The translations under genes were made by a program, and so were the position numbers. This document shows, piece after piece, positions 27,777 to 46,199 of a stretch of DNA of 64,000 nt. How positions within the stretch are numbered: position 1 is the stretch's first letter; each line of letters starts with the position of its first letter. Source of the DNA: Cryomorphaceae bacterium (GTDB lineage: Bacteria > Bacteroidota > Bacteroidia > Flavobacteriales_D > Cryomorphaceae); the NCBI GenBank assembly GCA_003565555.1, contig PXBH01000145.1, positions 73,334-137,333 on the forward strand, written 5' to 3'. Under the pieces are notes generated by a model that was not told where the DNA came from, made no database searches, and saw only the letters and a program-made list of their open reading frames with translations.

Positions 27777-27806
27777 ACCAAAAAAAGGCGACCGTCGGGT
27801 CGCCTC
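27777..27806 (-). terminator. Rho-independent terminator of the first CotH/T9SS gene
   Basis: AGGCGACC / GGTCGCCT (27786-27793 and 27798-27805) with a four-base loop, followed on the minus strand by a T tract. It lies about 30 bases after the stop at 27835. Confidence 0.85.
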
Positions 27807-27834
27807 TTAAATCTTCAAGTGCTTTTGCTAACCT

Positions 27835-30800
27835 TTACCGTGCGATCATGAATTTTTCAATCACGGTTTCTGACTCAGTGGTGAGCCTGTATAGGTATAC
27901 CCCGTTCGGAAGGTAATTGCCGTCAAATTCGAGTCGATATTCCAGGTCGGGGGTAGTAATTTGGCTGAAAATACGTCGGAGCATGCGCCCGCTGAGGTCA
28001 TACACTTCCAGTGTGGCGTACTCTTCGCGGGGATTAGAGAAGTGTACAAATGACTGACCGGTAGTCGGATTTGGAGATGAAGTGATCACTGCTCCGCAAC
28101 TCACCACAGATACATTTACACCGTTGGAGACGGAAAAGCATCCTTGCAGGTCGGCAGCCGATTGCACCCCGGAGAGGTTTACGCCCTGCGCATACGAGAG
28201 GTGGCGCACTTGGTAAGTGCCCGCACCGTAAGGATTCAGGTTGAAATTCCCCGTACTGTTGCTCGCCAATACGGGGCTGCCCGGTTGAGACAGGTTGACA
28301 AGAAAGAACCGGCTGCCGAACCCGGCAGCTCCTGTCAGCTCCGTAGTAATCACTGTTTGGCTGCCCGATGCCTCACATACCGTGGTGGGAGAGGTGGGGG
28401 TGAGCACTCCCGCTGCGGGCTCTTCACTCAAAAAGACATTGACCGTATTTGATGACGACCAACATCCCGCCACATCTGCAAGTTGCGCGGCATTTGTGAT
28501 CGCGGCCAACTGCGCGGCATCAACATCTGCTTCGAAGCGCAGGTGCCGGATGCGGTACTGCCCGGGCGGGTAAACATCCAGGTTGAAGTTGGCATTGCCT
28601 GCACGAACGTCCAGCACATTGTTGTCACTATCCAGAAGGCCGTAGCGTCCGAATTGCCCCACGGCACCCGTGAGTTGGATGTTTACACCCTGCGGTTCCC
28701 CCGTTTGTGCGCACAGACTTACCGGCGAGAGGGCAGTCAAAGTGCCGCCGTTTGCATTGCACGGCAGGTCGAGGGTAAACGGTACGGTATTGAAATCGCC
28801 GAAAGCGGCACCGTCATCCTCCTTTCGCCAATTGTTCGTGTCATGGATCAGCGGACTGTATTCCGCAAAAGAGTCTGCCCCTTCTCTCGTGTCATTATAT
28901 TCCGCATTCAATGCGTGGAGCACGATGTTTCCGAAAGGAATATTCAGGGCTTCGGGAAGATAGGAGGTAGGGTTGGTCACTTCACCCTCCGTGAGCCATT
29001 CGCTCAGGTATGAGAGACCGTATATCCAGTGCGGCCCTTTCACCCCTCCCTGAATGATAAAAATGTTGTCGCCGTTCTGTGAAAGTCCGCCCATATCGCC
29101 GGCCAAGATCGTGCCGAGGTCGGTTCCTTCTCCGTCTCCGAATTCGGGACCGCCTATTTTGACCACGGTACCCGCCGGAATCGCGGCACCCGTGTTGTTT
29201 TGCCAGATAAGTGCATTTTCATTGTCTTTCAGTGCTGTGCCTGTCCATCCCTTATCGGTAAATATGAGTACAGCCTCGTCGGGAATCGGGACCTGATTGG
29301 TAAAAGCGATGCCGTCATTGGCCACTGATCTGTAACCGATCACGACCACGTCTCCCGCGGCAAGGTTTACGGGATAACCGATTTCCCCGGAAAGGATGAC
29401 GGAAACCGGTGCCGCGTTACCGCCTAAATGCAGCAAGGGAAGCCCGCTGTAAAACCCCGCTTCGCCTTCGGAGCCGAGTCTTACGAAAATTTCTCGGTCC
29501 AAGCTTCCGCCGTTATAAGCTACGGTAATCTGAGAAGAAAACTCCTCACCGTCTGCAGACACCTCAAAAGGTGCCGGGCAAATAACGGAAATCGTCCCGG
29601 CGGCGGGCGTCAAAAAATTTCCGGTGAGCATATACGAATCAGCACCGCTCGGATCCTGACCTTCATTGCGGTAGAAACCGCCCAGCTCTGTAACCGATGC
29701 CAGCAGAATCGGGTTGGCTGCCGAACCGGTTGTGATCAGCACGTCATCCACGGAGATTTCCGGCCTGTTGCCGCTGTCTCCCTCCTCTTGGTAATACACC
29801 CACCGCAGGTGCACCTCTTCTTGCTCGGTCAGGAACTCAGGAAATTCGATCAGGAAACTCTCCGCTGCTCCCTCAGATTTATCAGCTGAAGAGAAAGTGA
29901 CGGGAAGGTCGAAATCACTGAATGCACCCTGCCCTCCGATACGGTATTGCAGCCTTACGGCAAATTGGCGGGCTCCTTCCGTGACGAGGCGGTTTACCCA
30001 GCTCATCTCTGCCTCGGATACGCCTGTGGTATTCAATGTGACGGAAGCAGAGCCGATGTACCTGTCGGGATCGGCGTCTCCGCTGTTGCAATTGTTGTAC
30101 TGCGGATTGCCCGTGGTGATGAAGGAGAATCCGCCTTCTCCGAGCCCGTTGATTCGCGGGCGGTTTGTTTTGTCAAAGGCGCAGTCATACGCTGAAATTC
30201 CGGGGGCGAAGACATCATAAGCGGAATCAGAAGGGTTTTCGCTCCACCAAAAGGACATGAAATCAGGAGAGGAGCCGGGAATTTCGTCGGCCGCCCAAGA
30301 CCCGAATACGAAATCGCCTTCCGCGAGTATATGCGCCGGACCGGGACCGGGGCTCAGCGAAAGTCCGCTGAAGCTGATATTGTCAAAGCGCACATTTCCG
30401 GAGGTGTTCGAGGCGGCCTCGTCGGTAAACAATATTCGTACGGCAAAATCGGGATTGTCATTTGCTTCCGCCACACCATCCAAATCAAAGCTGTACGCGC
30501 TGTATTCCGTGAAAACCGAATCGGTGCCCAGAGGGATCCAAGGCCCGCCGGATGAGGTGCGGAAATACAGCTCTGTAAACGTGGCTCCGTTGTTGGTGCG
30601 CCTTGCGGCATAATCGAGACGGATGTCTGAATAGCCCGTGGTCGGTGCTTCGATGATCAGTTCACGGGTATCTGAGGGATTTCTCACCCGGAGTCCCCGA
30701 CCCGCAGGCTCTCCGAACTGAAGGTTGATGTCAGACCCGTCATTGACATCGTCCATAAAGCCGTCACCCGTGCCCGGATAAGATATGTTGCCCGGATCGC

Positions 30801-32964
30801 CGAGGGCAAAATCAGACGATACTGTGACAAAATCATCGGGCAGCGCATTGAAATGCCAATAAGTGAACACCTCTTCTTCCGGTGTGACAGCTTCACCTTG
30901 AACTTCGAACAAGGCGGTGAACTGCACGCTTCCCGCATCCGTGTTGATTTCGATCGCCGGGCTGTCCGGCAGACTATTGTCTGACCAGCCTGCAAACGAA
31001 TATCCGGGGTTGGGCACCGCTGTGACCTTGAGCGGTACGCCTTTGAAGTACTTTCCCGTCCACGGATAGGGGGAATCCCCGACTCCGGGGGTTCCGGTGC
31101 GGATATCCGTCGAATGCACGCGAATAAAACCGGCTTCTTGGTCTGATACATCGACTTCAAGGTCAAACTGCCCGGCTAAATCGAATGCATTTTCGATGTG
31201 CTGCTTGTGAAAGTCCGGTCTCAGGCTGTTGAAATCAAGCATTTTGCTTATTTCATTGATCCACTCGCTATATGTCTCGGGTCGCTTCCAACGGGCCACG
31301 TGCTCTTCCATGTAAGGGGCCAATTCGGCAGCGTATGCAGTGATTACCGCGTTGGCTTCATCGGCAAGTAATACGGTATTGAGCAGGTCTGCCGTTCGGT
31401 TGATAAAATCATTTCGGAAGCCTTCGTTCAGCATTCCCCACCGCCACCAAGTCGCCAAATCCCCGCCTTTATTGATGGTGTCTGTGAGAATCTCGTGCAT
31501 GAAATCAACGGACGCCGCATTGGTGCCGTTTCGGTTGGCCCAGCCCAAGTCGAGGTCGACCAACCCGATATTCCACCGAAGATCATTGGTTCCGTCGTCC
31601 GTTTTTGACCTGTACGCGATCGTATTGTTGTGCAGCCAGTCGGTATTTCTGCTGTAGATGCCCACAATGAATACATCGCGCAGGCTTTCGTGATTCACCA
31701 GCGTGCGAAATACTTCGAGGTTCTCATCGGTAGGCGGATTGTTTTTCACAAATGCGGTCACAAAATTCAAATGCATCTCGTTGCCGTACTCGATATTGCC
31801 GTCTTTGTACATCTCGAGATTCTCCTCTGCAATGCCTTTCTTGCGTTCAAAATAGTGGTGGTCGTAACGCTCGCGAATAGTGTTTATGCCGTAGTACTCC
31901 CCGTTTACGAAGACCACAGCGGGTTGCGCATCGAGGTAGCACACGTTCAGGGGCTTCAGCAGCCTTTGCACCACGGCATCACGCATATTGGCTTTGCCTT
32001 CATCACCGCCCGAATTGTGAAGCACAATCCGCTTAAAAGCGGCATCGTTTCCGGGGCCGAAAAATGAATGGTTGAAGGTCGATGCACCGTATTCACTGCG
32101 TGCGTAAAGACGGAAACTCTTCCGTGGCCACCTTCTGCTCGAGCTGCCGTGCAGGCGGAGGCCTGTATCGTGGTTCAGCGCCGGGCCGTCCGTTTCCGGA
32201 AGGAATAGTGAAAATGCCGTTTCCCTTTCCCATTCGCGGCCTCTGCGCCACCAGTTGCTGCGCCAATTCGGCAAATAAGTCATATCGGGAAAGTCCGTCC
32301 TGAATTCGTCAAAGGTCACACCGGCATTGGCGATGCCATCGTAATAATCGTACAACCCATCCTCATCGAGTGCTAAAGAGATCACGGGCAGCGCGTAGCG
32401 CGAGCCTCCCTCCGGCGTTACGAAGAAGGTATGGCTTTTCACGGGTCCGCAGCCTTCCGCTGCTCGGCATATTCTGGCCCTGACCACGGTGCCTTTGAAT
32501 GAAGGCTCATCGGGAAAGTAAGGGGTCTCCAAAGTGTAGGTAGAAGACTTTTGGCTGAGGCGATCGGGCAACGGGGACCTGTCAATGATTTCCAAAGGAT
32601 CCGCATAGGTGTAGGTGCGCAGGGTGTCATACAAAAATTCACCGAACGGATCTCCGGGTGATTGCGGATAGCTGTTTTTGTAGGTCCAAACTTTGCCGTT
32701 GAGGTTTTCGGGAAGCGGCTCTGACCCGTCTGTGGTGTAAATGATTACATCATTTTCCTCGGGAGCGGAAAGGGTCAGGGTGAAACCGTCGGTGTAAAAT
32801 CCTCCGACGTGAGAAAAACCCGGAGCAGGTATGGCATCTGAAAATTCGGTTTGGGCGCTCAGAACATGCGAAGCAAAGCAAAAAAACAGCAGTATTGCGG
32901 CGGGGTGTCTCAAGCCCCTCATCGCCGAAGGCAATGGCTTCAATCCGGTTGAATATTTTTTCAT
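27835..32964 (-). CDS. Giant T9SS-exported CotH-kinase-domain protein A (1709 aa)
   Basis: Modules in order: signal peptide (1-38, ending VLSAQ); chitobiase/FN3-like module with IIYTTDGSEP (75-84); CotH-type kinase domain (about 185-590) with LHGSSSRRWPRKSFRLYAR (271-289), IRERYDHHYF (363-372) and VDLDLGW (469-475); an InlB-like GYSFAGW repeat (654-660); an unnamed module with GDGFMDDVNDGSDINL (about 700-870); a second unnamed module with RPRINGLGEGGFSF (about 878-1080); a BIG-like module; an AGDVVVIGYRSVANDGI domain (about 1195-1380); two related cysteine-bearing repeats (about 1390-1610); and a T9SS type A sorting domain (about 1625-1709). CotH domains in spore coat are atypical protein kinases; here a surface role is inferred. 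No own promoter was found in the 51-base gap to gene B. Confidence 0.9.
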   Translation of the reverse strand: MKKYSTGLKPLPSAMRGLRHPAAILLFFCFASHVLSAQTEFSDAIPAPGFSHVGGFYTDGFTLTLSAPEENDVIIYTTDGSEPLPENLNGKVWTYKNSYPQSPGDPFGEFLYDTLRTYTYADPLEIIDRSPLPDRLSQKSSTYTLETPYFPDEPSFKGTVVRARICRAAEGCGPVKSHTFFVTPEGGSRYALPVISLALDEDGLYDYYDGIANAGVTFDEFRTDFPDMTYLPNWRSNWWRRGREWERETAFSLFLPETDGPALNHDTGLRLHGSSSRRWPRKSFRLYARSEYGASTFNHSFFGPGNDAAFKRIVLHNSGGDEGKANMRDAVVQRLLKPLNVCYLDAQPAVVFVNGEYYGINTIRERYDHHYFERKKGIAEENLEMYKDGNIEYGNEMHLNFVTAFVKNNPPTDENLEVFRTLVNHESLRDVFIVGIYSRNTDWLHNNTIAYRSKTDDGTNDLRWNIGLVDLDLGWANRNGTNAASVDFMHEILTDTINKGGDLATWWRWGMLNEGFRNDFINRTADLLNTVLLADEANAVITAYAAELAPYMEEHVARWKRPETYSEWINEISKMLDFNSLRPDFHKQHIENAFDLAGQFDLEVDVSDQEAGFIRVHSTDIRTGTPGVGDSPYPWTGKYFKGVPLKVTAVPNPGYSFAGWSDNSLPDSPAIEINTDAGSVQFTALFEVQGEAVTPEEEVFTYWHFNALPDDFVTVSSDFALGDPGNISYPGTGDGFMDDVNDGSDINLQFGEPAGRGLRVRNPSDTRELIIEAPTTGYSDIRLDYAARRTNNGATFTELYFRTSSGGPWIPLGTDSVFTEYSAYSFDLDGVAEANDNPDFAVRILFTDEAASNTSGNVRFDNISFSGLSLSPGPGPAHILAEGDFVFGSWAADEIPGSSPDFMSFWWSENPSDSAYDVFAPGISAYDCAFDKTNRPRINGLGEGGFSFITTGNPQYNNCNSGDADPDRYIGSASVTLNTTGVSEAEMSWVNRLVTEGARQFAVRLQYRIGGQGAFSDFDLPVTFSSADKSEGAAESFLIEFPEFLTEQEEVHLRWVYYQEEGDSGNRPEISVDDVLITTGSAANPILLASVTELGGFYRNEGQDPSGADSYMLTGNFLTPAAGTISVICPAPFEVSADGEEFSSQITVAYNGGSLDREIFVRLGSEGEAGFYSGLPLLHLGGNAAPVSVILSGEIGYPVNLAAGDVVVIGYRSVANDGIAFTNQVPIPDEAVLIFTDKGWTGTALKDNENALIWQNNTGAAIPAGTVVKIGGPEFGDGEGTDLGTILAGDMGGLSQNGDNIFIIQGGVKGPHWIYGLSYLSEWLTEGEVTNPTSYLPEALNIPFGNIVLHALNAEYNDTREGADSFAEYSPLIHDTNNWRKEDDGAAFGDFNTVPFTLDLPCNANGGTLTALSPVSLCAQTGEPQGVNIQLTGAVGQFGRYGLLDSDNNVLDVRAGNANFNLDVYPPGQYRIRHLRFEADVDAAQLAAITNAAQLADVAGCWSSSNTVNVFLSEEPAAGVLTPTSPTTVCEASGSQTVITTELTGAAGFGSRFFLVNLSQPGSPVLASNSTGNFNLNPYGAGTYQVRHLSYAQGVNLSGVQSAADLQGCFSVSNGVNVSVVSCGAVITSSPNPTTGQSFVHFSNPREEYATLEVYDLSGRMLRRIFSQITTPDLEYRLEFDGNYLPNGVYLYRLTTESETVIEKFMIAR
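27838..28812 (-). repeat. Long direct repeat, copy 1 (C-terminal cassette of gene A)
   Basis: About 975 bases encoding the two cysteine-bearing repeats and the T9SS sorting domain. It aligns colinearly, on the same strand, with 41930-42905 in gene D; long runs are identical, for example the 18 bases GTGAGTTGGATGTTTACA present at about 28670 and 42760. Identity by eye is high throughout, unlike the unrelated N-termini of the two genes. Confidence 0.75.
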
Positions 32965-33015
32965 AGCATCTTTTGGTTGATCCGTAGCCTCAAAAAGGCA
33001 TTTCGGCGCGTTAAA

Positions 33016-36000
33016 TTACCGATTTATGATCAATTTGTCAATCTTCACTTCGCCTTCCGTCATCAGCCGCACGATGTATATCCCGTTGGGGAGGTGGGAG
33101 AAATCAGGCCTGAAGGTGTACTCCGTTTCTGCCGTTGCCCTGCCTTGGAAAATGTGCATCAACAGCCTGCCTTGCATATCAAACAATCCCAAAGAGGCCC
33201 GTGTAGAGCCCCCCTTTACGGAAAATGATACCGTGGAGGATCCCCCCGAGGGATTGGGATACACGTCTAAGACGTCGATGATGCAGTTGACAATGCTGAA
33301 ACCAATAGGGTCCGATAGCGCAAAACACCCTTCCAATGCATTCACGGAGGCTGCGCCCGCCACGGATGCCCCCGTCCCGTAAGCTACGTGGTACAAGTCG
33401 TAGGCGCCGATGCCGAGGGCAAAACCGTTGAACAATCCCGCTGCTGAGGAGCCGATGACAGAAGCATCTCCCGCCGGAGTCACCAGAAAGCGGCTCTGAT
33501 CCCCCGAATTTCCCGAAACATCTGCAAGAATGATATTGCCCGTGCAAAAGGGTCCTGAAGGATCCAGAACCGGGGTGCCCGAATTGGGGGCGGTTCTCAG
33601 AAACAACGGTACGGGCGGGTCGGCCGCTTCGATGCAACCCGGCAATGTGCTCAGGTCGTTGATATTCGATACGGAAAAGACGGGAACGTTGCTTTCGTAA
33701 GCCACGTAGCCGATGTAGTAATTTCCGGAGGGAAGCGGATCCAGGTTGAAATGTGAATTGGCCGTGCGGATATCCAGCACTGTCCCCAATGCATTGTAAA
33801 GTACCCACAGTCCGTTGGGGCCCTCATTGCCCGAAACGGAAACGCTCAAAACTTGTGATTGACCCGTACCCACGCAGATGCTTCCGGAACCCGCGGCGCT
33901 GAGTGCGCCTCCGCTTACCTGACAGGCGCCCTGTACAGTGAAGAAGGTCGTGTTAAATTCCCCGAAAGCCTCGCCTTCGCTTTCCTTTCTCCAGTTATCT
34001 GTGTCATGTATCAGGCTGAAATAGGTATCAAAATCTTCTGCTTCGCTGCGCGTGGCATCATATTCCGCATTCACGGCGAATACCGTATTGTTCCTTTCCG
34101 GAAAATTCAGGATCTCCGGGAGGTAGGAGGTGGGATTGGTCACACTTCCTTCCGTGAGCCAATCGCTCAGGTAGGAGAGACCGTATATCCACACGGGTTG
34201 ACTCAGACTCCCCTGAACAGCAAAGATGTTATCTCCGTTTTGTGAAAGGCCGTCCAGCTTCCCGTACTCCACCCTTCCGATGCTTGTCTCTTCTCCGTCA
34301 CCGAGCTCGGGACCGCCTATTTTCACCACGGTACCCGGAGGCAGGGTATACCCCGCATTGTTGCGCCACACCAGCACGTTTTCATTGGTCAGGAGGGAGG
34401 TGCCGTCATATCCTCGATCGGTAAAAATCAGTACGGTACCGTTGGGAACGGGAACCCTGTTTGTAAACACGATTCCGTCATTGGCCGAGCCCCGATACCC
34501 GATTATTGCGATATCGCCGGCAGATAAATTTACCGAAAAGGCCGCCTCACCGCTCAGCAGTAAAGTCAATGGGGGCGCACCCCCGCCTGTGTGGATGAGC
34601 TGAAGATCCCTTTTTTCTCCCCGCGGCGCATTTGCCCGCAGGCGTACGAAGAGTTCGCGACTCAGTTCGGAATTCTCGTAGTTCACCTGAATTTCGGTGG
34701 AGAAAATTTCCCCGTCTTCCGAGATTTCGAAAGGAAAGGGGGCGAATACTGAAATACTGCCTGACGAGGGCGTGAGGTCGGTGCCCGTAAGCGTGTATGG
34801 GATTGCCTCTCCCGGTGCACCCGGCTCGGAGAATAAACCCTCCAAGGCAGTACTGCTCGCAGTGAGCAGAGGCGGGGCTGCAGTACCCGTAGTGATTTCG
34901 ATCTCATCTATTGCGATGGCGGAGAAACTTCCTGATGAAGCCCCGTCAGCGTAGTACACGAACCTGAGGTGTACCTCCGCCAAACCGAGGAGGAACGCGG
35001 GAAGCTCAAGCTCGAACTGCTCGCTGTCGCCGGTCGATTTGCCCGCTGTGGTAAATTCGGGAGCGCCGGGCACGTCAAAAAAGCGGCCTGTACCGCCCGT
35101 CCGGTATTGCAGCCTCAGGGCAAACGGGCGTTCGCCCGCCGAAGCCACGGAAGCCGTGTAGGTCATTTCCGCCTGAGTCACATGCTCCGTATTTAAACCG
35201 ATCACCGCCGATCCCGTGTAAAACCCGGTTCCGTTTTCGATGCCCGTGCAGTTGTCAAACTGAGGTACGGAATCCGACACTACGGCAAATCCGTCTTCAC
35301 CCAGTCCGTTAAAGCGCGGCAGGGAAATCCTGTTGTACTTGCAGGGGTATTTTTTACCCGTGGCCGCCTTGATGTCAAAATCGGGCGCAGCGGGATCTTC
35401 GGAAGTGAAGAAGGCCATGTAGTCCGGGTAGGTACCTTCTTGTGCATCCGCGGGCCATGCCTCAAACAGGAAGTCGTGTTGCGCAAGCGGAAGCAGCGGG
35501 ATGCCTCCCTCGGCCAGATTTACACCGGTAAGCGCGATATTGTCAAATCGGTTATTCCCCGATGTATTGAAAGATGCGGCACCCGTAAAGCGTATTCTGA
35601 CCTGAAAATCGGGGTTGTCATTGGCTTCGGGAAATCCGGAAAAATCGAAGTGATACGGGACATAGTCCGTAAAAACATCCGCAGAGTCCAAAGAAATCCA
35701 AGACGCTTGTGGAGAAAATTTTACGGAAATCTCCTGACGGTTCGCGCCGTTGTTCGTACGCTTGGCGGCGTATGAAAGCCGAATGTTGGCAAAGCCCTCC
35801 GTACTTGCGGAGATGACCAGCGCACGTTCGGCACTCGGATTCCTCACGCGCAGCGCCCTTCCGGCCGGGTAGCCGAGTTGCAGGTTGATCTCGCTGCCGT
35901 CATTGACATCATCCATGTAGCCGTCCCCATCCCCCGGGTAGGTGATCACAGCGCTGCTGCCGGAGGGTTCGTCAGCGGCTATATTGTCCACTTCACCGGA

Positions 36001-38112
36001 AGTAGGTAAACTGTTGAAATGCCAGTATGAAAACACTTCGCGCGGGGTGTCGGGCACCGTGTCATTCTCAATGAATAAAGCTGTGATAAAAGCAGAGGAG
36101 GCTTCTGTGTCAAAACTCTTCTCCGCAGATGAGCTGTTCAGATCTCCTTCCCAGCCCGCGAAGGTGTAGCCCTCTCGAGGCAAGGCCTTCAGAGTGATCG
36201 GTACACCGTTGAAGTACTTGCCTGTCCAGGGGTAAGCGGCCCCGCCTGTTACGCCCGGAGTGTTATCGTCAATCCGGATTGTATTCACTTGTACCTCGCC
36301 GCCCTCCGGATTGTCCACATCCAGAGTTAGCGCGTAAGTGCCGTCAGCCCCGAGACCTGACGCAATGTGCCCGCGGTGAATCTCAGGCCGCTCCTCGGAA
36401 AATTGACCCATAAAGTTCAGTTCGTTGATCCAGCCTCCCATAGCAGCCGGCAGCTTCCATCGGGCAATCTGCTCGGGCATGTACGGGGCGATTTCCTGGG
36501 CGTAGTTCTCAATCACGGTATTGGCATATTCCGGCACAAAAACAGTATTCATCAGGTCCGCAGATCGGTTGATAAATCCGTTTTTAAACCGCTCATTTTC
36601 CATGGCATTTCTGAACATGTCCGCCACAAAGCCGTGGTAAGAAAAAGAGGGCTGCCCCGGCAGGATATTGCTCACCAATACCTCGTCGATCATGTCGCGG
36701 TTCAGGTCGTTTTGCCCGGCCCAGCCCCAGCCCAGATCCAGGTCAACCGAAGCGAAATACCAGCGTGTGTCGTTTTGCGCATCGGCCTGCTTGGACCGCC
36801 ACATCTCCGTATTGTTCGGGAGCCAATCGCGGTTCGACATGTACATATTGGCAGCGAAAACGGTCCAGAAACTTAAGGTGTCCACCAAGGTGGTAAAGGC
36901 CTCGTAAACTTCCGGATCGGCAAGATCTCGCTCATTCACAAAATCTTTGAGAAAGTCGTTGTTCCAAGGGTCTCCGTAATCGAGTTGATTGTTGCTCAGT
37001 ATTTCGAGGTTTTCCTCCTCGATGCCCTTTCTGCGCAGGAAGTAGTGGTGGTCGTAACGCTCGCGAATGTGATAGAGTCCGTGGTACTCGCCGTTGAGAA
37101 ATAAAACAGCCGGCCTGGAATCTACCGTTTCAACCCCCGTAGGTTGCAGGATGCGCTGAATAACCGGATCGCGCATTTGGGCCTTATTCAAGTCACCGCT
37201 TCCGCTGAAGAGAATCCAGCGCTTGTAGCTTTCGTCCGTTTGCGATTCGAAAATGGGGTAATCAAATGTGGAGGCACCGTAATCGCTCCGCGCGTAGAGC
37301 CGCCAGCTTTTTTTCGGAAATGAACGGCTGCTGAAGCCGTGCACCCGCAGTCCCAATCTGCCGTTGAGAACGGGTGTATTCGAACCCGGAACCCAAAGTG
37401 AAAAAGATGATTCGGATTCCCACATGCGGCCGCGCCTCCAGAAATTGTTGGCAGACCGGGGGGGATTGGTCGATCCGGGATTTTGAACCCGCCAACTGTC
37501 AAAGGTGACCCCGGGTACCGCAATGCCATCTTCGTAATCGAAAAGATCACCTTCGTCCAGAGAAACAGCAATCACCGGAATACCGTAGGTGTTGTTTCCC
37601 TCGGGAGAAATGAAATAGGTTTCGGAAACCACTTCGCTCATGCCGGTGCCGGGGCGCCATACCCTTGCGCGCAAGGCAGTGCCTTTGAAGGAGGGGCTTT
37701 CCGGAAAGTAAGGCGTGTTGAAGGTAGCTGTGGTGGACTTCTGACTGAGTCTGTCCGGGTCTCCTGACCTGTCTTCAATCGCGATCGGTCCGCTGTATTC
37801 CTGCGTGCCGAACGATTCGAAAAGCAAAGGGCCGAAAGGCTGCCCGGGTTCTTCGGGGTAGCTGTTTTTGTAGGAGAATTGGGCACCGTCGAGCAAGCCG
37901 GGCAGCGGTTCGGACCCGTCGGTGGTGTACAAAATCACGTCACCAGGCTCATCGGCGAGCAGGACGAGATCAAAAGGCGCCGTAAAAAATCCGCCCTGCA
38001 CCGAAAATACGGGCGGAGGTATGTCGGGATTTACGGGTTGGGAGTGGGCCGAATTCAGTAAAACACCTTGGAGAAAAAGTGTCGTGAATAGAGCACGTAG
38101 AGCAATGTGCAT
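33016..38112 (-). CDS. Giant T9SS-exported CotH-kinase-domain protein B (1698 aa)
   Basis: The ATG at 38112 is chosen because a clear signal peptide (MHIALRALFTTLFLQG to AHSQ) follows; an in-frame TTG 84 bases upstream is less likely. Layout matches protein A: chitobiase-like module with ILYTTDGSEP, CotH-type domain with VHGFSSRSFPKKSWRLYAR, IRERYDHHYFLRRKG and VDLDLGWGW, InlB-like GYTFAGW repeat, the two unnamed modules (GDGYMDDVNDGSEINL; RFNGLGEDGFAV), a BIG-like module, and the AGDIAIIGYRGSANDGI domain. The end differs: its cysteine-bearing repeats are only distantly similar and its T9SS domain (VYPNPSGGSSTVSF to KIDKLIINR) is of another subtype sequence. It has its own promoter-like site at 38166-38196. 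Confidence 0.9.
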   Translation of the reverse strand: MHIALRALFTTLFLQGVLLNSAHSQPVNPDIPPPVFSVQGGFFTAPFDLVLLADEPGDVILYTTDGSEPLPGLLDGAQFSYKNSYPEEPGQPFGPLLFESFGTQEYSGPIAIEDRSGDPDRLSQKSTTATFNTPYFPESPSFKGTALRARVWRPGTGMSEVVSETYFISPEGNNTYGIPVIAVSLDEGDLFDYEDGIAVPGVTFDSWRVQNPGSTNPPRSANNFWRRGRMWESESSFSLWVPGSNTPVLNGRLGLRVHGFSSRSFPKKSWRLYARSDYGASTFDYPIFESQTDESYKRWILFSGSGDLNKAQMRDPVIQRILQPTGVETVDSRPAVLFLNGEYHGLYHIRERYDHHYFLRRKGIEEENLEILSNNQLDYGDPWNNDFLKDFVNERDLADPEVYEAFTTLVDTLSFWTVFAANMYMSNRDWLPNNTEMWRSKQADAQNDTRWYFASVDLDLGWGWAGQNDLNRDMIDEVLVSNILPGQPSFSYHGFVADMFRNAMENERFKNGFINRSADLMNTVFVPEYANTVIENYAQEIAPYMPEQIARWKLPAAMGGWINELNFMGQFSEERPEIHRGHIASGLGADGTYALTLDVDNPEGGEVQVNTIRIDDNTPGVTGGAAYPWTGKYFNGVPITLKALPREGYTFAGWEGDLNSSSAEKSFDTEASSAFITALFIENDTVPDTPREVFSYWHFNSLPTSGEVDNIAADEPSGSSAVITYPGDGDGYMDDVNDGSEINLQLGYPAGRALRVRNPSAERALVISASTEGFANIRLSYAAKRTNNGANRQEISVKFSPQASWISLDSADVFTDYVPYHFDFSGFPEANDNPDFQVRIRFTGAASFNTSGNNRFDNIALTGVNLAEGGIPLLPLAQHDFLFEAWPADAQEGTYPDYMAFFTSEDPAAPDFDIKAATGKKYPCKYNRISLPRFNGLGEDGFAVVSDSVPQFDNCTGIENGTGFYTGSAVIGLNTEHVTQAEMTYTASVASAGERPFALRLQYRTGGTGRFFDVPGAPEFTTAGKSTGDSEQFELELPAFLLGLAEVHLRFVYYADGASSGSFSAIAIDEIEITTGTAAPPLLTASSTALEGLFSEPGAPGEAIPYTLTGTDLTPSSGSISVFAPFPFEISEDGEIFSTEIQVNYENSELSRELFVRLRANAPRGEKRDLQLIHTGGGAPPLTLLLSGEAAFSVNLSAGDIAIIGYRGSANDGIVFTNRVPVPNGTVLIFTDRGYDGTSLLTNENVLVWRNNAGYTLPPGTVVKIGGPELGDGEETSIGRVEYGKLDGLSQNGDNIFAVQGSLSQPVWIYGLSYLSDWLTEGSVTNPTSYLPEILNFPERNNTVFAVNAEYDATRSEAEDFDTYFSLIHDTDNWRKESEGEAFGEFNTTFFTVQGACQVSGGALSAAGSGSICVGTGQSQVLSVSVSGNEGPNGLWVLYNALGTVLDIRTANSHFNLDPLPSGNYYIGYVAYESNVPVFSVSNINDLSTLPGCIEAADPPVPLFLRTAPNSGTPVLDPSGPFCTGNIILADVSGNSGDQSRFLVTPAGDASVIGSSAAGLFNGFALGIGAYDLYHVAYGTGASVAGAASVNALEGCFALSDPIGFSIVNCIIDVLDVYPNPSGGSSTVSFSVKGGSTRASLGLFDMQGRLLMHIFQGRATAETEYTFRPDFSHLPNGIYIVRLMTEGEVKIDKLIINR

Positions 38113-38165
38113 GGTTGCATTGGGAGTTAAGGGAATACTAAGAATCAGGCGGTACCGGATACAGA

Positions 38166-38196
38166 TAAATGTAGCGATTCTTTTTGGGCTGTGCAA
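38166..38196 (-). promoter_or_regulatory. Candidate promoter of CotH/T9SS gene B
   Basis: On the minus strand TTG (38194-38196), 20 bases, then TACATTTA (38166-38173). This fits the Bacteroidota -33/-7 layout with one mismatch in the -7 box, 54 bases before the ATG at 38112. Confidence 0.45.
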
Positions 38197-38270
38197 GAGG
38201 TAATATTTGCAGGAGATTTGCCGTCTCTTACCCCTGCGAGATGCCTGTTGAGGTTCGGCTTGCGCGAAAA

Positions 38271-41200
38271 TCAGTACTTCACCACTTTTACCGTGGCGGT
38301 TCTGTTTCCGTTTTCCGCCCTGATGAGGTACACTCCCGGTGAAAGGCTGCCTATATGAAGGAAGAAGTCGTGGTTGTCACCGTTCCGCAGCGTCTTTTGC
38401 AAAACCGTTTTTCCGAATAGGTCGGTTACCGAGATGTGCACGGGCAGGTTGAAACCCGTGATCACACCCCTTATTTCATTTTTGGCGGGATTCGGAAAGA
38501 CCTTGAAGAGAGGCCGATCGCGGTTGCTTGTTCCCAGCGGCGGGCAGGCGCATATCTCGATGTCGTCCACCGCGATCTCGGGCCGGTTACCGCTGTCGCC
38601 CGCATCTTGCAGGTAAACCCAACGAAGGTCAAGCTCAGGAATACCGATCAATTCCTGAGGAAGCTGAAGGATATACCGCACAGAGTCGCCTTCGGCTTTG
38701 CCTTGAGAGGAGAAGGTCACCGGCGCGTCGAAATCTTGGTAATCTTGGCCTGATGCGGTGCGGTATTGAAGCCTTACGGCAAATGTGCGGGCCCCTTCAG
38801 ATATCAGCCGTGCGGTCCATGACACCTGTCCGTATTGAATGCCTTGGGTATGGATCCCGATTTGTGCGGATCCCACATAGCGGTGCACTTGTGAAGAATC
38901 GCCCGCACAGAAATCAAACTGGGGATTTCCCGTGGAGATGAATGAAAAGCCGAGGTCACCGCGCCCGTTAATCCGCGGTCGCGTATTCAGGTCGTATCCG
39001 CAGTCGTAGGGATGCATGCCCGGCGCGAAGGGATCGTAATCTTCGCCGGAAGGATCTTCGGACCAGAAGAAGCGCATGTAGGGTGGACTTTCGCCCGGAA
39101 AACGATCGGGATTCCAGCTGTCGAGTGTATAATCTCCGTCCTGCAGTGCAAAGCGGGGTTCTTCCCAATTCTCGATCGGGACGGCTTTGAAGGTCAGGTT
39201 GTCAAATCGGTTGTTGCCGTCGGGCCCGGGAGCAGTCTCACCGGTGAAGATGAACCGCAGGGCAAAGTGCGGGTTGTCATCGGTTTCGGGCAGGTCGGAG
39301 AAATCGTGCTCATAGAGAAACCATGCGGGATACACCGTTTGCGTTTCGATGAGCACCCACGGGTTGTCCGGGTGGGTGCGGTAGAATACCTGCCGTGTAT
39401 CCGAACCGTTGTTGGTTCTTACGGAGGCGTAACTTACGCGCAGGTCGCGGTACCCCGAGGTGGGAGCGTGCACGATGAGTTCGCGCTGCGCGGAGGGATT
39501 GCGCACGCGAAGGGCTTTCCCCGTGCTTTGGCCCGCAGGGAGGTTTACCTCTGTGCCGTCGTTCACGTCGTCCATGATTCCGTCGCCTACGCCGGGGTAG
39601 GAGATGGTGGCCGCATTTCCGGTGCGGGAACTGTCGGCCCGTATGCTGAGCAAGTTTTCCGTCAAGTCATTGAAGTGCCAGTAATGGAGCAGCACCGGCC
39701 ACGGGTCGGGGTCCGGTGCAAAAAGGGCCTTCATATAGACCTCGTCACTCTCGGTGTTGAAAACGAAGTGGTCATCCGTAGCTTCATAGTCGCCTTCCCA
39801 TCCGGTAAAAATATAGCCCGGATAGGCCACAGCCGTTATTTCTGCGGGCACTCCCTTGAAGTATGTGCCCTGCCATGGGTATGGCGCTTCATCCACTCCG
39901 GGGGTCATCGGGTTGATGTCTACCGTATTCACCCGAATATACCCGTGCTCTTGATCGGATACATCAAGGGTGAGCTCGAAAGGTCCCTCGAGATCGAAGA
40001 CATCGACCAAGTGCTGGCGCTGATAGGCGGGACGTTCCAAATTGAAGGATGTGATTTTTTGAATTTCATTCCCCCAGGCGCTCAGAGAGCTTGAATTTCT
40101 CCACCGCAGAAAGTGCTCTGCCATGTGCGGCTGAATTTCGAGGGCATAGTCTTGAACAATGGCATTGCATCGCGCGGGGAGCAGGTGGGTGTTGAGCAGG
40201 TCCGCAAATCGGGAAATGAAAGCGTGTCGGTAGGATTCATTTTTTACGGCAGCCCTGAAGAATTCTGCCGGCGCGCCGGTCTTGTTGAAAACCACGGAAT
40301 CTCCCTGTACTGTTCCGTTGATCACTTCGTCGAGGAGGTTGTTGTCGATGTCCTCGGCACTGCCCAGATTCAGCCACCCCTGATCCAGATCGATCACGGC
40401 AAATTCCCACCGGTGGTCGGGCAAAGGGCCGTCTTCCTTCGACCGAAACATGAGCACATTGTTGCTCAGCCAGTCAATGTTATTGATGAAGAAATTGCCC
40501 GTAAAAATGTCCGTCATGGAGGCGGTATTCACCTTTTCCGAAAAGGCGGCGAAAGCCTCATCGTCTGCCAGGGCGTTATCCCCCGCGATGAGGTTCAATG
40601 TTTGCACGAGAAATGCGGAATCGCCTTCCTGCACGGAGCCGTCTTTGTAGAGGTCCAGATACTCCTCCGGAATCCCGCGTCGCCGCTCGAAATAGTGCTT
40701 ATCGTAGCGTTCGCGGATGTGGTTTACACCGTAAAATTCGCCGTTGACCAGCACTACAACCGGCTGCGCTTCCTGAATTTGCCATCCGAGCTCACCCATA
40801 ATCCTTTGTCCGGCCGCATCGCGGAGGTTGGCCCGCGGTTGGTCACCTCCCGCATTGTGTGCAATGATTCTGTTAAATGAGTCGTCCGCGAGGTTTTCAA
40901 AAAAGGGGTACTCGAATCGGGAGGCACCGTACTCAGATCTGGCGTAAAGCCTCAGGCTTTTTCTCGGCCACCTGCGGCTTGAGCTTCCGTGGAGCCTCAT
41001 CCCGCAGTCGTGCAGAAGGGCGGGCGCAGATTCCCCTTCCGGAAAAAATGCGAAATGCGCACGCGCTTCCCATTCTGCCCCCCGGCGCCAGAAATTGTTG
41101 CGCCAATTCGGCAGGGTCTGCACGTCGGGAAACATGAGCCGGGTCTCGTCAAAAGTGATGCCCGCATTGCCGAAACCATCCTCATAGTCGTAAAATCTGT

Positions 41201-41753
41201 CTTCGTTGAATGCCAGCGAAATCACGGGGAGGGAGTACCGAGCTCTTCCCGATGCAGTCACGATAAATGTTTCGGAGCGAATCTCGCTGAGTTCACTTTC
41301 ATTCCTCCACACCCGCGCCCTGACCACCGTACCCTTGAAGGAAGGCGTTTCGGGGATGTGCAAAGGAATAAACTCATTGGTTGATGATTTTTGGCTGAAG
41401 ATATCAGGCTCGGAACTCCGGTCTTCTATCGAGAGAGGTGAGGTGTAAATCAAGGTAAAATATTCCGCAACCAGTGTATCCCCGAAGGGCTGTCCGGGTT
41501 GCTGCGGATATTGATTCTTGTAGGTGTATGTCTTTCCCTCGATGTTCTCGGGATGCGGTTCGGAACCGTCTAAGGTGTACAGAATCACATCACCCTCTTC
41601 CGAAGCTGAAAGCTCAAGGGTGAAGGCTTCAGCGTAGAATCCGCTCTGATGAGAAAATTCGGGAACGGGTACAGCACCGCCTTGCGCAAAAGACCACCCG
41701 GCCAAACCGAGCTGCAAAAGGAAACTGAAAAGAATCGGGCTGTAGTTTTTCAT
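38271..41753 (-). CDS. T9SS-exported CotH-kinase-domain protein C (1160 aa)
   Basis: Shorter paralogue. Signal peptide (1-23, ending WSFAQ); chitobiase-like module with ILYTLDGSEP; CotH-type domain with LHGSSSRRWPRKSLRLYAR, IRERYDKHYFERRRG and VIDLDQGW; InlB-like GYIFTGW repeat; unnamed modules one (GDGIMDDVNDGTEVNL) and two (RPRINGRGDLGFSF); then directly a T9SS sorting domain (VFPNPAKNEIRGVI to ATVKVVKY). It lacks the BIG-like module, the AGD domain and the cysteine-bearing repeats of A, B and D. The CotH part is closer to A than to B by eye. Two inserted cysteines, CACPP, sit at the domain boundary. Own promoter-like site at 41793-41800. Confidence 0.9.
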   Translation of the reverse strand: MKNYSPILFSFLLQLGLAGWSFAQGGAVPVPEFSHQSGFYAEAFTLELSASEEGDVILYTLDGSEPHPENIEGKTYTYKNQYPQQPGQPFGDTLVAEYFTLIYTSPLSIEDRSSEPDIFSQKSSTNEFIPLHIPETPSFKGTVVRARVWRNESELSEIRSETFIVTASGRARYSLPVISLAFNEDRFYDYEDGFGNAGITFDETRLMFPDVQTLPNWRNNFWRRGAEWEARAHFAFFPEGESAPALLHDCGMRLHGSSSRRWPRKSLRLYARSEYGASRFEYPFFENLADDSFNRIIAHNAGGDQPRANLRDAAGQRIMGELGWQIQEAQPVVVLVNGEFYGVNHIRERYDKHYFERRRGIPEEYLDLYKDGSVQEGDSAFLVQTLNLIAGDNALADDEAFAAFSEKVNTASMTDIFTGNFFINNIDWLSNNVLMFRSKEDGPLPDHRWEFAVIDLDQGWLNLGSAEDIDNNLLDEVINGTVQGDSVVFNKTGAPAEFFRAAVKNESYRHAFISRFADLLNTHLLPARCNAIVQDYALEIQPHMAEHFLRWRNSSSLSAWGNEIQKITSFNLERPAYQRQHLVDVFDLEGPFELTLDVSDQEHGYIRVNTVDINPMTPGVDEAPYPWQGTYFKGVPAEITAVAYPGYIFTGWEGDYEATDDHFVFNTESDEVYMKALFAPDPDPWPVLLHYWHFNDLTENLLSIRADSSRTGNAATISYPGVGDGIMDDVNDGTEVNLPAGQSTGKALRVRNPSAQRELIVHAPTSGYRDLRVSYASVRTNNGSDTRQVFYRTHPDNPWVLIETQTVYPAWFLYEHDFSDLPETDDNPHFALRFIFTGETAPGPDGNNRFDNLTFKAVPIENWEEPRFALQDGDYTLDSWNPDRFPGESPPYMRFFWSEDPSGEDYDPFAPGMHPYDCGYDLNTRPRINGRGDLGFSFISTGNPQFDFCAGDSSQVHRYVGSAQIGIHTQGIQYGQVSWTARLISEGARTFAVRLQYRTASGQDYQDFDAPVTFSSQGKAEGDSVRYILQLPQELIGIPELDLRWVYLQDAGDSGNRPEIAVDDIEICACPPLGTSNRDRPLFKVFPNPAKNEIRGVITGFNLPVHISVTDLFGKTVLQKTLRNGDNHDFFLHIGSLSPGVYLIRAENGNRTATVKVVKY

Positions 41754-41792
41754 TTAATCGTCCGCTGCCTTATTACTCAGGTTGTGTACTTA

Positions 41793-41800
41793 CAAAAGTA
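41793..41800 (-). promoter_or_regulatory. Candidate -7 element of CotH/T9SS gene C
   Basis: TACTTTTG on the minus strand fits TAnnTTTG exactly, 40 bases before the ATG at 41753. It is embedded in an inverted repeat (TACTTAC-TTTT-GTAAGTA), which could be an operator overlapping the promoter. Confidence 0.4.
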
Positions 41801-41866
41801 AGTATTCTCCATACGCCTTTGTACCGATGAAGTTTGCCGAATAAGCAAGCTTTCGAAAACCGAGAA

Positions 41867-41895
41867 CAAAAAAAACGGCCCGAGAGGGCCGTTTT
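41867..41895 (-). terminator. Rho-independent terminator of gene D
   Basis: AAAACGGCCC / GGGCCGTTTT (41872-41881 and 41886-41895) with loop GAGA and a T tract on the minus strand, about 27 bases after the stop at 41922. It separates gene D from gene C. Confidence 0.88.
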
Positions 41896-41921
41896 CAATA
41901 AGCAATCGGAAAACCAATGCC

Positions 41922-44900
41922 TCATCGGGCGATCAACAGTTTTTCCGTTACCGTTTCGCTCTCCGTGGTGAGGCGGCAAATGTACACGCCCACGGGCAGT
42001 TGCGAAGCGTCAAATTCTGTGCGGTATTCCTGTCCGGCAACTGTGGTTTGGCTGAAAAGCCGCTCCAGAAGTCGTCCGCTCGTGTCGTACACCTCCAAAG
42101 TAGCATACTCTTCCCGGGGATTGGTGAAAGTCACAAAGGAATGGGCCGCCGTCGGGTTGGGAGAAGCGGCGATGGCCGCACCGCAATTGACTACCGAGAC
42201 GGTCACACCGTTTGATATCGAAAAGCATCCTTGCAGATCTGCGGCAGAAGCTACGTTCGTGAGGTTCACCCCCTGCGCGTATGACAGGTGGCGCACCTGA
42301 AAGGTGCCGGGACCGTAAGGGTTGAGGTTGAAATCTCCCGAACTGTTGTTAGCGATCACGGGATTTCCGGCAGCCCCCAGATTGACCAGGAAGAAGCGGC
42401 TGCCGAATCCTGTGGCTCCCGTCAGATCGGTGGTGACCACGGTTTGGCTGCCGGAGGCCGCGCACACGGTGGTGGGTGAGGTTGCGGTGAGCGTGCCGCC
42501 TTCGGGTTTGGTGCTGAGGAATACATTTACAGTATTCGAAGAGGCCCAGCACCCCTCCACGTCTGCGAGTTGCGATGCATTGGTCAAAGAAGCCAGTTCG
42601 GCAGCATTTACATCCGCCTCGTAGCGCAGGTGCCTGATGCGGTACTGACCGGGAGGATATACATCCAAGTTGAAATTGGCATTCCCGGCCCGCACATCGA
42701 GCACGTTGTTGTCCGTATCGAGCAGTCCGTAGCGACCGAATTGACCCACGGCTCCCGTGAGTTGGATGTTTACACCTTGCGGTTCGCCCGTGCCCACGCA
42801 CACGCTCACCGGCGAAAGGGCGGTAAGCGTTCCGCCGTTCGCATTGCAAGGCAGGGCGCCCAAGGTAAAGGGGGTCGTATCAAAATCGCCGAATTCCGCT
42901 CCGTCAAATTCTGTCCGCCAATTTTCCGGGTCGTGCACGAGGTCTTGATAGGCGGCAAAGCTCTCTTCACCTTCACGCGCTTCGTCGTACTCGCCGTTGC
43001 GTTCGAGGATGACGATGTTTCCTGCGGGAATATCCAGTTCCTCAGGCAGGTAAGAGGTGGCATTGCCCACGGGCCCCTCGGTCAGCCATTCGCTGAGGTA
43101 GGACAATCCGTGCAGCCATACCGGAACACTGAGGCTGCCCTGTATCGCGAAAATATTGTCACCGGCTTGGGCCAGTCCGTCCAGATTGCCGCTGATCAAT
43201 TCACCGACGGATACTCCTTCACCGTCGCCGAATTCGGGACCGCCGATTTTCACCACGCTACCGGCGGGGATTGCCGCGCCCGAGGTGTTTTTCCATACTG
43301 CGGTGTTTTCGTTTTTTCTCAGCTCCGTGCCCGTAAAGCCGTTGTCAGTGAAAATGATGATGGTCTCATCGGGGATGTCCGTCCATGCGGCGAAGGTAAT
43401 TCCGTCGTTGGCCACAGACCTGAAGCCGATGATGGCGATGTCGGCTGTGGTGAGGTTCACGGGATACCCTACTTCGCCCGAGAGGTTAATGTTCACAGGG
43501 TTTGCAGAGCCGCCCGTGTGGGAGATTGAACCGGTGTATGTGCCTATTTCCAACCCCTCTTTCAACCTTACCGAAATGTCTTCCGAAAGGCTTCCTCCCC
43601 CGTAGCCCAGGGTGAGCAGGGTGTCGTAGTCGGTTCCGTTGATCGAAATTTCAAAATCTCCCGAAACTGCGGCAGTCACCACTCCCGTAGAGGGGTCCAA
43701 GTTTTCACCGGAAAGGGTATAAGTCACGGGCGCACTCGGCCCCTCGCCGTCGGTGTAGTACAAATCGGAGACGGCAGATTCTGTCGCGCCCAGGAAAGGA
43801 GCGGTGAGCGGTGCCGTGGTCACCAGAAGGTCGTCGATGCCGATTTCGGGACGGGCACCTCCGCCGGGGCCGTCTTGGTAGTACACGAGACGAAGGTATA
43901 CCTCGCTCTGCCCCAGTACTGCAGAGGGGAAGATATAATCGGTAACGGAAGAATCACCTTCGGCCAATCCCGTGGATGCGAATCCCGGATTTCCGGGGAA
44001 ATCTGTGTAGTCTCCCGCGTCGCTCAGCCGGTATTGGAGCCGCACTACAAAAGGCCTCTCCCCGTCGGTAAGAATTCGGTTAAGCCAAGAAATTCGCGCG
44101 AAGCTCACGCCTTCTGTGTTCAGTCCGATTACCGCTGAACCCGTAAATCGATCACTGTCGGCAGCGCCGGTCACGCAGTTGTTGAATTGGGCACTTCCCG
44201 TGGCCAAGAAGGAAAAACCGGCGTCGTCGTTGCCGTTGATGCGCGATCTGGAGGGCACATCGTAGCCGCAATCGTAGAGTTTTGTGCCGTCGGCCAGGGG
44301 ATTAAACGCGGGGGATGTGGGGTTGTCGGAAAAGAAAAACCGCATGTTCGGCGGATAGGTGCCCGCCTCGCTTTCGCTGCTCCACTCTTCGAGAAGGTAA
44401 TCCGCGGCAGCGAGGTTAAAAAGTTCGGGATTCGGCGAATCGCCCACCGTTCCGCTCACGGCTACGGCGGTTACTGCCGCGCCTGCTTCACAACTGACGT
44501 TGCCGTCGTATGCACCGACGGCAAGTCCGGCCGATAGTCTGACATAAACGGTGTCGCTGTCGATGATCGCGCCGCCGTCCGTGTAGGCTATGTTCAAGCT
44601 TGTGCTCCAAGTGCCATTGTCTGCGGATACCTCAAATCCCGAGGGGGCAGTCACGGAAATATTGCCCGCGGCCGGATCCAAGGCGGAGGCGGACAGTATA
44701 AAAAACTCATCTGCCGAGGGACCTTGCTCTACGGTGTAGAAGAATTCGGGCAATGCCGCGGGGGAGGCAAAAAGCTGAGGATCTGCAGCACCGAAGTCGG
44801 TCAGGGCAATGTCATCGATGTTCGTACGTCGGTTCAATGTGCCTTCATCACTCACGGTGCGGATTCTGATGCGCGCATCGTTGGCCTCATTGACCTCTGC

Positions 44901-46199
44901 AAAGAAGTTTACCGGAGAAGCAGAACCCGTAAATTCATCACCGATTTGTATCCAGTTTTCACCGCCGTCGGTGCTGTACTCAGCCACATGCGGTACTTGT
45001 TGGTCGCTTCCGTATCGCGCGTACACGAACGAGAGTGTGCCGATCCCGCCCGGCTTGTCCTGGAGCATGGTGATTGACGTGTTTCCGTATCCGCGCAGCC
45101 TTGCAGAGCGTTCACCGTTTTTGAAATCCGCCGGTGCGGTACCGATGAGGGCTTCCGTCATATTCCAGTCGATGCCGGAGAGGTTTACGGTGCCCGAAGC
45201 ATAGGAACCTTTGGTCTCGCCCGGGCCTTCGAAGTCCACGATGTAAGTCCCGGGGGCCGGTGCCGCCGATACGTTTCCGTCCGCAGCTACCTGCGCATCG
45301 GCGCCGCCGCCTTCCAGGGTTACATTGCCCGCGTAAGCGCCGGGGGAGAGGCCCTCGGCAAGACGCAGAAATACGGTGCGCGGTTGAGAGATGATCGTTC
45401 CTCCGGCGTAGGCCAAATCGGCGGAGGCTCCGTAGCTGTCATCGTCATCTGACACTTCGTATCCCGAAGGAGCAGTGACGGTAACATTGCCGGAGCCGGA
45501 GAGGTTTTGGGCGGTTACCAGAAAAGATTGCGATGCTGAAGGCCCTTCTCCTTCGGTGTATTCGAAGCCGGAAAGGGCGGCGGGCGAAGCAAAAATTGCA
45601 GGCTCGGAGGCACTCGTCAGAGCGAAATCGGCGACGCGCCACGTGGCGCAACCCCCGCTGATGTACTCGGCCTTAAAAGCGATGTAGACAGCAGATGTGC
45701 TCGCGGATTGCAAGTCGCTGAAAGGCCCGAATGTTTCGCTTGTGTTTGAGGGAATGCTGTTGTCCTCAAAAAATTGGTTGGTGATGAGGGTGATGCTGCT
45801 CCACGCTGCTGCGTTGGGATCACCGGAGCCGCTGTAGTCCGTGCTGTACAGCACTTCAAGGTCATTATCCCCGGAAAATGCCCGCTGAATATCAAAACTC
45901 AGCGATTCGTCGGTGCTGCCTGTCAGGTCGAAGGCGGGAGTGATCAGCCAGTCTTCGTTGATCTGACAGCCCCCCGAAAAGGGATTCATCGTTACATTGT
46001 TGAAGGAGGCGTTGTACTGCCAGGATTGATCACCCGTTACGCTGACTTCGGTCCAGCCGGCGGCAAAGGGATCAGATGAAAAATCAAAGAGGTAGGGCAG
46101 TTGAGCAAATGCGGAAGCGTGTATCAGCAGTCCGGCAAAAAAAGACAGAGAGGCGCGTATGCCGCTCCTCAAAAAACGGTGGTCAGGTCTGGTTTTCAT
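41922..46199 (-). CDS. Giant T9SS-exported modular protein D without CotH domain (1425 aa)
   Basis: Signal peptide (1-32, ending SAFAQ), then a choice-of-anchor/MAM-like module (LFDFSSDPFAAGWTEV to CATWRVADFAL), several BIG-like modules beginning FASPAALSGFEYTEG, a second anchor-type module (YIVDFEGPGETKGSY), the second unnamed module shared with A-C (SRINGNDDAGFSF), another BIG-like module, the TADIAIIGFRSVANDGI domain, the two cysteine-bearing repeats and a T9SS type A sorting domain. There is no kinase-like region. From the shared module on, it follows the order of protein A, and the last third is nearly the same even at DNA level. Role unknown; an adhesin or surface scaffold is plausible. 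Confidence 0.88.
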   Translation of the reverse strand: MKTRPDHRFLRSGIRASLSFFAGLLIHASAFAQLPYLFDFSSDPFAAGWTEVSVTGDQSWQYNASFNNVTMNPFSGGCQINEDWLITPAFDLTGSTDESLSFDIQRAFSGDNDLEVLYSTDYSGSGDPNAAAWSSITLITNQFFEDNSIPSNTSETFGPFSDLQSASTSAVYIAFKAEYISGGCATWRVADFALTSASEPAIFASPAALSGFEYTEGEGPSASQSFLVTAQNLSGSGNVTVTAPSGYEVSDDDDSYGASADLAYAGGTIISQPRTVFLRLAEGLSPGAYAGNVTLEGGGADAQVAADGNVSAAPAPGTYIVDFEGPGETKGSYASGTVNLSGIDWNMTEALIGTAPADFKNGERSARLRGYGNTSITMLQDKPGGIGTLSFVYARYGSDQQVPHVAEYSTDGGENWIQIGDEFTGSASPVNFFAEVNEANDARIRIRTVSDEGTLNRRTNIDDIALTDFGAADPQLFASPAALPEFFYTVEQGPSADEFFILSASALDPAAGNISVTAPSGFEVSADNGTWSTSLNIAYTDGGAIIDSDTVYVRLSAGLAVGAYDGNVSCEAGAAVTAVAVSGTVGDSPNPELFNLAAADYLLEEWSSESEAGTYPPNMRFFFSDNPTSPAFNPLADGTKLYDCGYDVPSRSRINGNDDAGFSFLATGSAQFNNCVTGAADSDRFTGSAVIGLNTEGVSFARISWLNRILTDGERPFVVRLQYRLSDAGDYTDFPGNPGFASTGLAEGDSSVTDYIFPSAVLGQSEVYLRLVYYQDGPGGGARPEIGIDDLLVTTAPLTAPFLGATESAVSDLYYTDGEGPSAPVTYTLSGENLDPSTGVVTAAVSGDFEISINGTDYDTLLTLGYGGGSLSEDISVRLKEGLEIGTYTGSISHTGGSANPVNINLSGEVGYPVNLTTADIAIIGFRSVANDGITFAAWTDIPDETIIIFTDNGFTGTELRKNENTAVWKNTSGAAIPAGSVVKIGGPEFGDGEGVSVGELISGNLDGLAQAGDNIFAIQGSLSVPVWLHGLSYLSEWLTEGPVGNATSYLPEELDIPAGNIVILERNGEYDEAREGEESFAAYQDLVHDPENWRTEFDGAEFGDFDTTPFTLGALPCNANGGTLTALSPVSVCVGTGEPQGVNIQLTGAVGQFGRYGLLDTDNNVLDVRAGNANFNLDVYPPGQYRIRHLRYEADVNAAELASLTNASQLADVEGCWASSNTVNVFLSTKPEGGTLTATSPTTVCAASGSQTVVTTDLTGATGFGSRFFLVNLGAAGNPVIANNSSGDFNLNPYGPGTFQVRHLSYAQGVNLTNVASAADLQGCFSISNGVTVSVVNCGAAIAASPNPTAAHSFVTFTNPREEYATLEVYDTSGRLLERLFSQTTVAGQEYRTEFDASQLPVGVYICRLTTESETVTEKLLIAR
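41930..42905 (-). repeat. Long direct repeat, copy 2 (C-terminal cassette of gene D)
   Basis: Partner of 27838-28812. Same length within a base or two, same reading frame, same strand; encodes the cysteine-bearing repeats and the T9SS sorting domain of gene D. The two copies are about 14 kb apart with genes B and C in between. Confidence 0.75.

Follow-up and report, generated by a model that had tools for sequence, protein, structure and literature searches.

What would three kinase-fold domains of the CotH family do in giant proteins that bear export signals and are encoded in a row by a bacterium of the Bacteroidota? The question is raised by a cluster at positions 27835-46199 of the window, the whole 64,000-nucleotide stretch of contig PXBH01000145.1 that was analyzed here, in which four minus-strand open reading frames, none with an internal stop, encode proteins A to D. 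The original prediction, made from the letters of the DNA, had placed here four large paralogous proteins of the type IX secretion system (T9SS); the coordinates proved exact and the Por_Secre_tail domain is present in all four, and the term paralogues holds in the sense of a mosaic in which A, B and C share their heads and A, B and D their tails, C and D having only a module of about 200 amino acids (aa) in common. The reading put forward here, with a probability of about 0.5, is that A, B and C have catalytic CotH domains at the cell surface, which would transfer phosphate from a nucleotide to proteins or glycans of the surface or matrix.

The CotH domains were recognized by the Pfam hidden Markov model (HMM) PF08757 with 129, 126 and 113 bits in A, B and C respectively against a cut-off of 23.8 (E-values of 3e-37 to 2e-32), and D gave no match to it in the Pfam search. 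The claim that three of the four proteins combine this domain with a chitobiase-like module was borne out as well, since CHB_HEX_C_1 also exceeds its cut-off in A, B and C, although barely. A profile of eight CotH domains found the Bacillus cereus CotH (5jd9/5jda) as the sole significant sequence match in the PDB (E 3e-13), and the same protein is the best solved fold for an AlphaFold2 model of residues 185-600 of A, built from a 36-row alignment (pLDDT 85.6, pTM 0.86; Foldseek against 5jd9 E 2.5e-14, TM 0.69/0.79), by a wide margin over the PI3K-type runner-up folds (1.2e-03). Fold, HMM match and kinase residues are therefore alike in these domains and in the CotH kinase family of B. subtilis and B. 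cereus. The kinase residues, whose loss would have spoken against the original prediction, are K282, E365, D442, N447, D470 and D472 in A, with intact equivalents in B and C according to the sequence alignment; the three sequence blocks expected of CotH occur in all three proteins, except that the first reads KKSWRLYAR instead of RKS in B. Among 79 CotH domains from several phyla, mostly 25-50% identical, 74 have N at the position of N447 and 74 have E or D at that of E365, and K282, D442 and D470 are more constant still (Table 1). It is well established that the CotH of B. subtilis phosphorylates coat proteins as a Ser/Thr kinase, and the changes D228Q and D251A inactivate it (PMC7821199); judged from the alignment, and from the spacing of 23 residues found in the chain of B. 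cereus, D442 and D470 of A are the probable equivalents of D228 and D251. The near-invariance of these residues, together with a nonsynonymous divergence (dN) of about 0.5 and saturated synonymous divergence (dS) in the A-B and A-C comparisons of the domain, favors a constraint on catalysis rather than mere retention of the fold.

The C-terminal export signal is present in all four proteins. At the C-terminus of A to D, Por_Secre_tail scores 34 to 44 bits in Pfam and TIGR04183 40 to 52 bits, all above the cut-offs, and the N-termini, judged by eye, show a typical hydrophobic stretch ending in xAQ or HSQ. The host genome encodes a full PorU sortase on contig C51 (1249 bits against a cut-off of 420; PorU was the only T9SS component searched) and contains 136 matches to the T9SS type A sorting domain, four of which are those of A to D. 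In this C-terminal domain the four proteins are no different from known type A cargo (TIGR04183/PF18962), and what is established for such cargo indicates that A to D are probably exported by the T9SS and anchored on the outer surface by the type A domain.

In the proposed mechanism, the T9SS would export the giant modular proteins of a variable chromosomal slot and the type A domain would fix them to the outer surface, where the flanking adhesion or carbohydrate-binding modules may hold the CotH domain to surface or matrix material. The domain would then transfer phosphate from an extracellular nucleotide, for example ATP of lysed cells, to proteins or glycans of the surface or matrix, in a reaction much like the CotH phosphorylation of spore-coat proteins. 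Catalysis, substrate, phosphate donor and surface location are what we infer in this scheme, and catalytic activity is favored because the catalytic residues are near-invariant. The setting differs from that of spore CotH: the domains of A, B and C sit in modular T9SS cargo proteins of 1160-1709 aa with no spore-coat context, and the Ser-rich basic substrate of the CotH-CotB-CotG system has no counterpart beside them.

Several observations weigh against this proposal. ATP is scarce outside the cell. No CotB- or CotG-like Ser-rich basic protein is present in the cluster: no stretch of 40 residues in A to D has more than 9 Ser, and their Lys content is 0.8-2.1%; among the twenty window genes around it (Pfam), the neighbors are unrelated enzymes, with no phosphotransfer or polysaccharide-synthesis genes. 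The literature searched contained no measurement of activity for an exported CotH of Bacteroidota. In the congener G001 the same slot has no CotH gene and holds a lone 883-aa D-like protein. Finally, the CotH paralogues on contigs C69 of the host genome (locus L074) and C197 of the congener G002 (locus L080) carry GDSHYAPEYV in place of the catalytic NxDWxxNN block; this branch is probably inactive, composed of pseudokinases, and since it lost the catalytic residues, the CotH fold can evidently persist without catalysis.

The rival explanation that survives best, although an unlikely one, is that CotH is a non-catalytic binding module and that the proteins are large adhesins or matrix scaffolds. 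Every other module is of an adhesion type (Ig-like, InlB-like, CBM/MAM-like, choice-of-anchor J); the model of module M2 of A resembles CBM4/22/29, MAM and the cleaved-adhesin domain of Lys-gingipain in Foldseek (TM 0.4-0.57), which speaks for the fold class and not for the ligand. D and the slot protein of G001 manage without CotH, and the catalytically dead branch resides in the same genome. Additionally, exported CotH proteins occur in cellulosomes, where Cthe_0239 has the order LTD, LTD, Fn3, CotH (PMC6083626), and some CotH proteins of Mucorales are ligands of host receptors (PMC9973265). On the other hand, the near-invariant K, D, N and D across the 79 domains are hard to reconcile with pure binding.

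The CotH proteins of the window have counterparts elsewhere. Forty-two named loci were retrieved by their CotH domain, and two or three CotH genes lie in a row in 14 of them, tandem arrays being found in 12 of the 15 Flavobacteriaceae-type loci; F. caeni and F. luteum are two species of Flavobacterium with such arrays. Exported relatives with LTD or Fn3, namely Cthe_0239 and members of Flavobacteriaceae, Bacteroidales, Cloacimonadota and Sumerlaeota (L021-L049), share the CHB/Fn3_assoc-CotH head with A, B and C; the head is usually followed by the InlB-like module and M2, as in A to C, and a T9SS tail is likewise common among those of Bacteroidota and Cloacimonadota. The order CHB-CotH-InlB recurs in most of the named relatives, usually with an LTD domain, which A, B and C lack (Pfam) but most of the remaining CotH proteins encoded in the host genome have; A and B have longer tails with the M3, Ig-like, X and GG modules. 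In the Flavobacteriaceae arrays the first and the last genes group by position on the tree (3 changes against a shuffled mean of 11.3, as low in 0 of 200 shuffles) and, on this evidence, the CotH paralogues of these arrays are co-inherited; the triple CotH set of Sumerlaeota (L041) is a separate, independent expansion. The comparison supports clustered exported CotH proteins as a recurring theme across lineages. A wider form of the proposal made here, in which clustered T9SS-displayed CotH kinases of Bacteroidota and other phyla would phosphorylate proteins or polysaccharide of the cell surface or matrix with extracellular nucleotide, outside the cell, and be co-inherited with the surface-polysaccharide loci of Flavobacteriaceae, is doubtful at present.

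These polysaccharide loci bear on a second alternative, that the CotH fold performs some other nucleotide-dependent glycan chemistry, such as glycan phosphorylation or AMP transfer, instead of protein phosphorylation. In nine Flavobacteriaceae loci (Table 1), including L022 with its single CotH gene, unlike the tandem arrays, CotH stands beside glycosyltransferases, Wzx/Wzy-type proteins, NDP-sugar epimerases or rml genes, an association for which no publication was found in the literature searched. The kinase fold has altered its chemistry elsewhere, as in SelO and SidJ. In streptococci and clostridia, cotH is contiguous with pel exopolysaccharide genes (PMC7112168), a context like that of the Flavobacteriaceae relatives. 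However, the cluster of the window lies outside any polysaccharide locus, with no polyphosphate polymerase, DUF4956 or pel genes among the same twenty genes (Pfam). A polysaccharide context was also rejected for the host genome, where no glycosyltransferase group 1 gene was found near the CotH genes, except for a weak partial match on C58. As the association in Flavobacteriaceae is, moreover, largely one inherited event, this alternative appears improbable.

The genomic history of the slot was followed in the two congeners. In G001, on one unbroken contig, UbiA, an open reading frame corresponding to 25674-26327, PIG-L and a LuxR remnant precede the D-like protein, which is followed by AspA and RimK. 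The slot of G002, inferred by joining the ends of contigs C171 and C206, has the same flanks and contains a full-length orthologue of D (59% identical), a D-like protein of 913 aa, a single CHB-CotH protein with the architecture seen here, near the D orthologue, and a giant of 2294 aa that lacks CotH. The slot thus holds 3 CotH genes in the host, 1 in G002 and 0 in G001: its position is conserved, its contents are variable and the triple CotH set is not kept. The expected conservation of the cluster therefore stood for the slot, kept in both congeners, and for the tandem exported CotH arrays of other lineages, but not for the number of CotH genes. The original prediction had suggested that A to D make up a dedicated and conserved surface system with several kinases; this is very improbable, since, despite the conserved slot and the D orthologue near a CotH protein in G002, the CotH number varies, A, B and C repeat one head instead of contributing complementary parts, and the host genome holds 12 CotH domains and 136 sorting domains.

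In quick trees with SH-aLRT support, A, B, C and the copy of G002 form one clade (99-100) with B outermost, which suggests a duplication preceding the species split and later losses. A mobile origin was considered and rejected, the CotH domain having matches in one record of a plasmid and three of phages, each below 27% identity; a library of viral structures contains predicted CotH-fold proteins of several phages, among them the records cr52_1 and cr124_1. The host genome also contains 15 LTD domains, many of them within CotH proteins. A search with protein C gave matches in 38 of 40 relatives, which is an upper bound for CotH because some of the weaker ones are matches to the sorting domain only. 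The PheT of the host is about 47% identical to that of Flavobacteriales relatives, which fits a placement in Bacteroidota and does not settle the family.

The modular structure was delimited by Pfam and NCBIfam matches and by comparison of A to D with each other. A and B have the order CHB, CotH, InlB-like, M2, M3, Ig-like, X, GG repeats and T9SS type A sorting domain; C passes from M3 directly to the sorting domain after the same CHB, CotH, InlB-like and M2 modules; and D consists of choice-of-anchor J, Ig-like repeats, M3, Ig-like, X, GG and sorting domain. The heads of A, B and C are mutually 41-49% identical and the tails of A, B and D 41-61%. Between A and D the GG repeats are 83% identical, and those of A reach 71-83% with giants on C58, C48, C78 and C52, compared with 50% for the D orthologue of G002, whereas for the neighboring modules of A, G002 is as close as D or closer; this points to exchange or homogenization of tail cassettes within the host genome. 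A very recent gene conversion of the tails was ruled out, since dS, at about 1.6, is close to saturation.

Regarding expression, the terminator-like hairpins between D and C and after A, both obtained by a consensus scan, suggest that C, B and A are transcribed together and D as a separate unit. The reading frame of B as listed (33016-38196) begins at a TTG that is probably too early; the most likely start is the in-frame ATG at 38112, which has a signal-peptide-like stretch after it. A LuxR-type regulator (27081-27668, minus strand) at the edge of the slot is 30% identical in G002 and leaves a remnant match in G001, so the edge is variable too. Additionally, a 317-aa protein (51489-52442, plus strand) coincides with a type A sorting-domain match (C179:125557-125772) and is a fifth T9SS cargo in the window.

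Table 1. Features of the CotH cluster (window coordinates) and related loci.
Feature	Position	Strand	Residues or size	Remarks
Protein A	27835..32964	-	1709 aa
A, chitobiase C-terminal/Fn3_assoc-like module	32413..32832	-	45-184	PF13290, 23.3 bits against cut-off 22
A, CotH kinase-fold domain	31165..32412	-	185-600	Pfam match 269-584, PF08757 E 3e-37
A, K282 codon	32119..32121	-	K282	lysine of RKS block; K in 78/79; aligned with KKS of 5jd9 through L001
A, D442 codon	31639..31641	-	D442	catalytic-Asp equivalent, NxDWxxNN block; D in 75/79; opposite NFDGFVHN of 5jd9
A, D470 codon	31555..31557	-	D470	first Asp of DLDLGW; D in 78/79; opposite first Asp of WDYDATW of 5jd9
A, InlB B-repeat-like module	30865..31164	-	601-700	PF18998, 25.1 bits
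A, module M2, jelly roll	30331..30864	-	701-878	AlphaFold2 pLDDT 86.3; Foldseek best E 4.5e-06
A, module M3	29719..30330	-	879-1082	common to A, B, C, D
A, module X	28771..29379	-	1196-1398	common to A, B, D; no Pfam match
A, two GG repeats	28090..28770	-	1399-1625	cassette homogenized among several giants of host genome (probable)
A, T9SS type A sorting domain	27838..28089	-	1626-1709	PF18962 and TIGR04183
Protein B	33016..38112	-	1698 aa	starting at ATG 38112; architecture as in A
B, CotH domain	36334..37602	-	199-621 of listed frame	PF08757 E 3.7e-36
Protein C	38271..41753	-	1160 aa
C, CotH domain	39978..41252	-	168-592	PF08757 E 2e-32
Protein D	41922..46199	-	1425 aa	without CotH
Terminator-like hairpin, D/C gap	41871..41896	-		read 41896-41871; 11 pairs, T tail; strong
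Terminator-like hairpin, 3' of A	27783..27808	-		read 27808-27783; 11 pairs, T tail; strong
Surface-polysaccharide CotH loci	L022, L030, L032, L033, L036, L037, L043, L046, L048			Flavobacteriaceae; LTD-CHB-CotH, mostly tandem pairs or triples

Proteins of this type are widespread and have been annotated before, and the row described here is mostly ordinary, a local and variable example of them. Exported CotH proteins are common under the database name 'CotH kinase', and the literature searched yielded no work on such a protein from a T9SS bacterium. A conserved kinase active site outside the cell would turn extracellular phosphorylation in bacteria into a testable question, and the co-inherited CotH pairs in the surface-polysaccharide loci of Flavobacteriaceae may offer cultivable species in which to address it.

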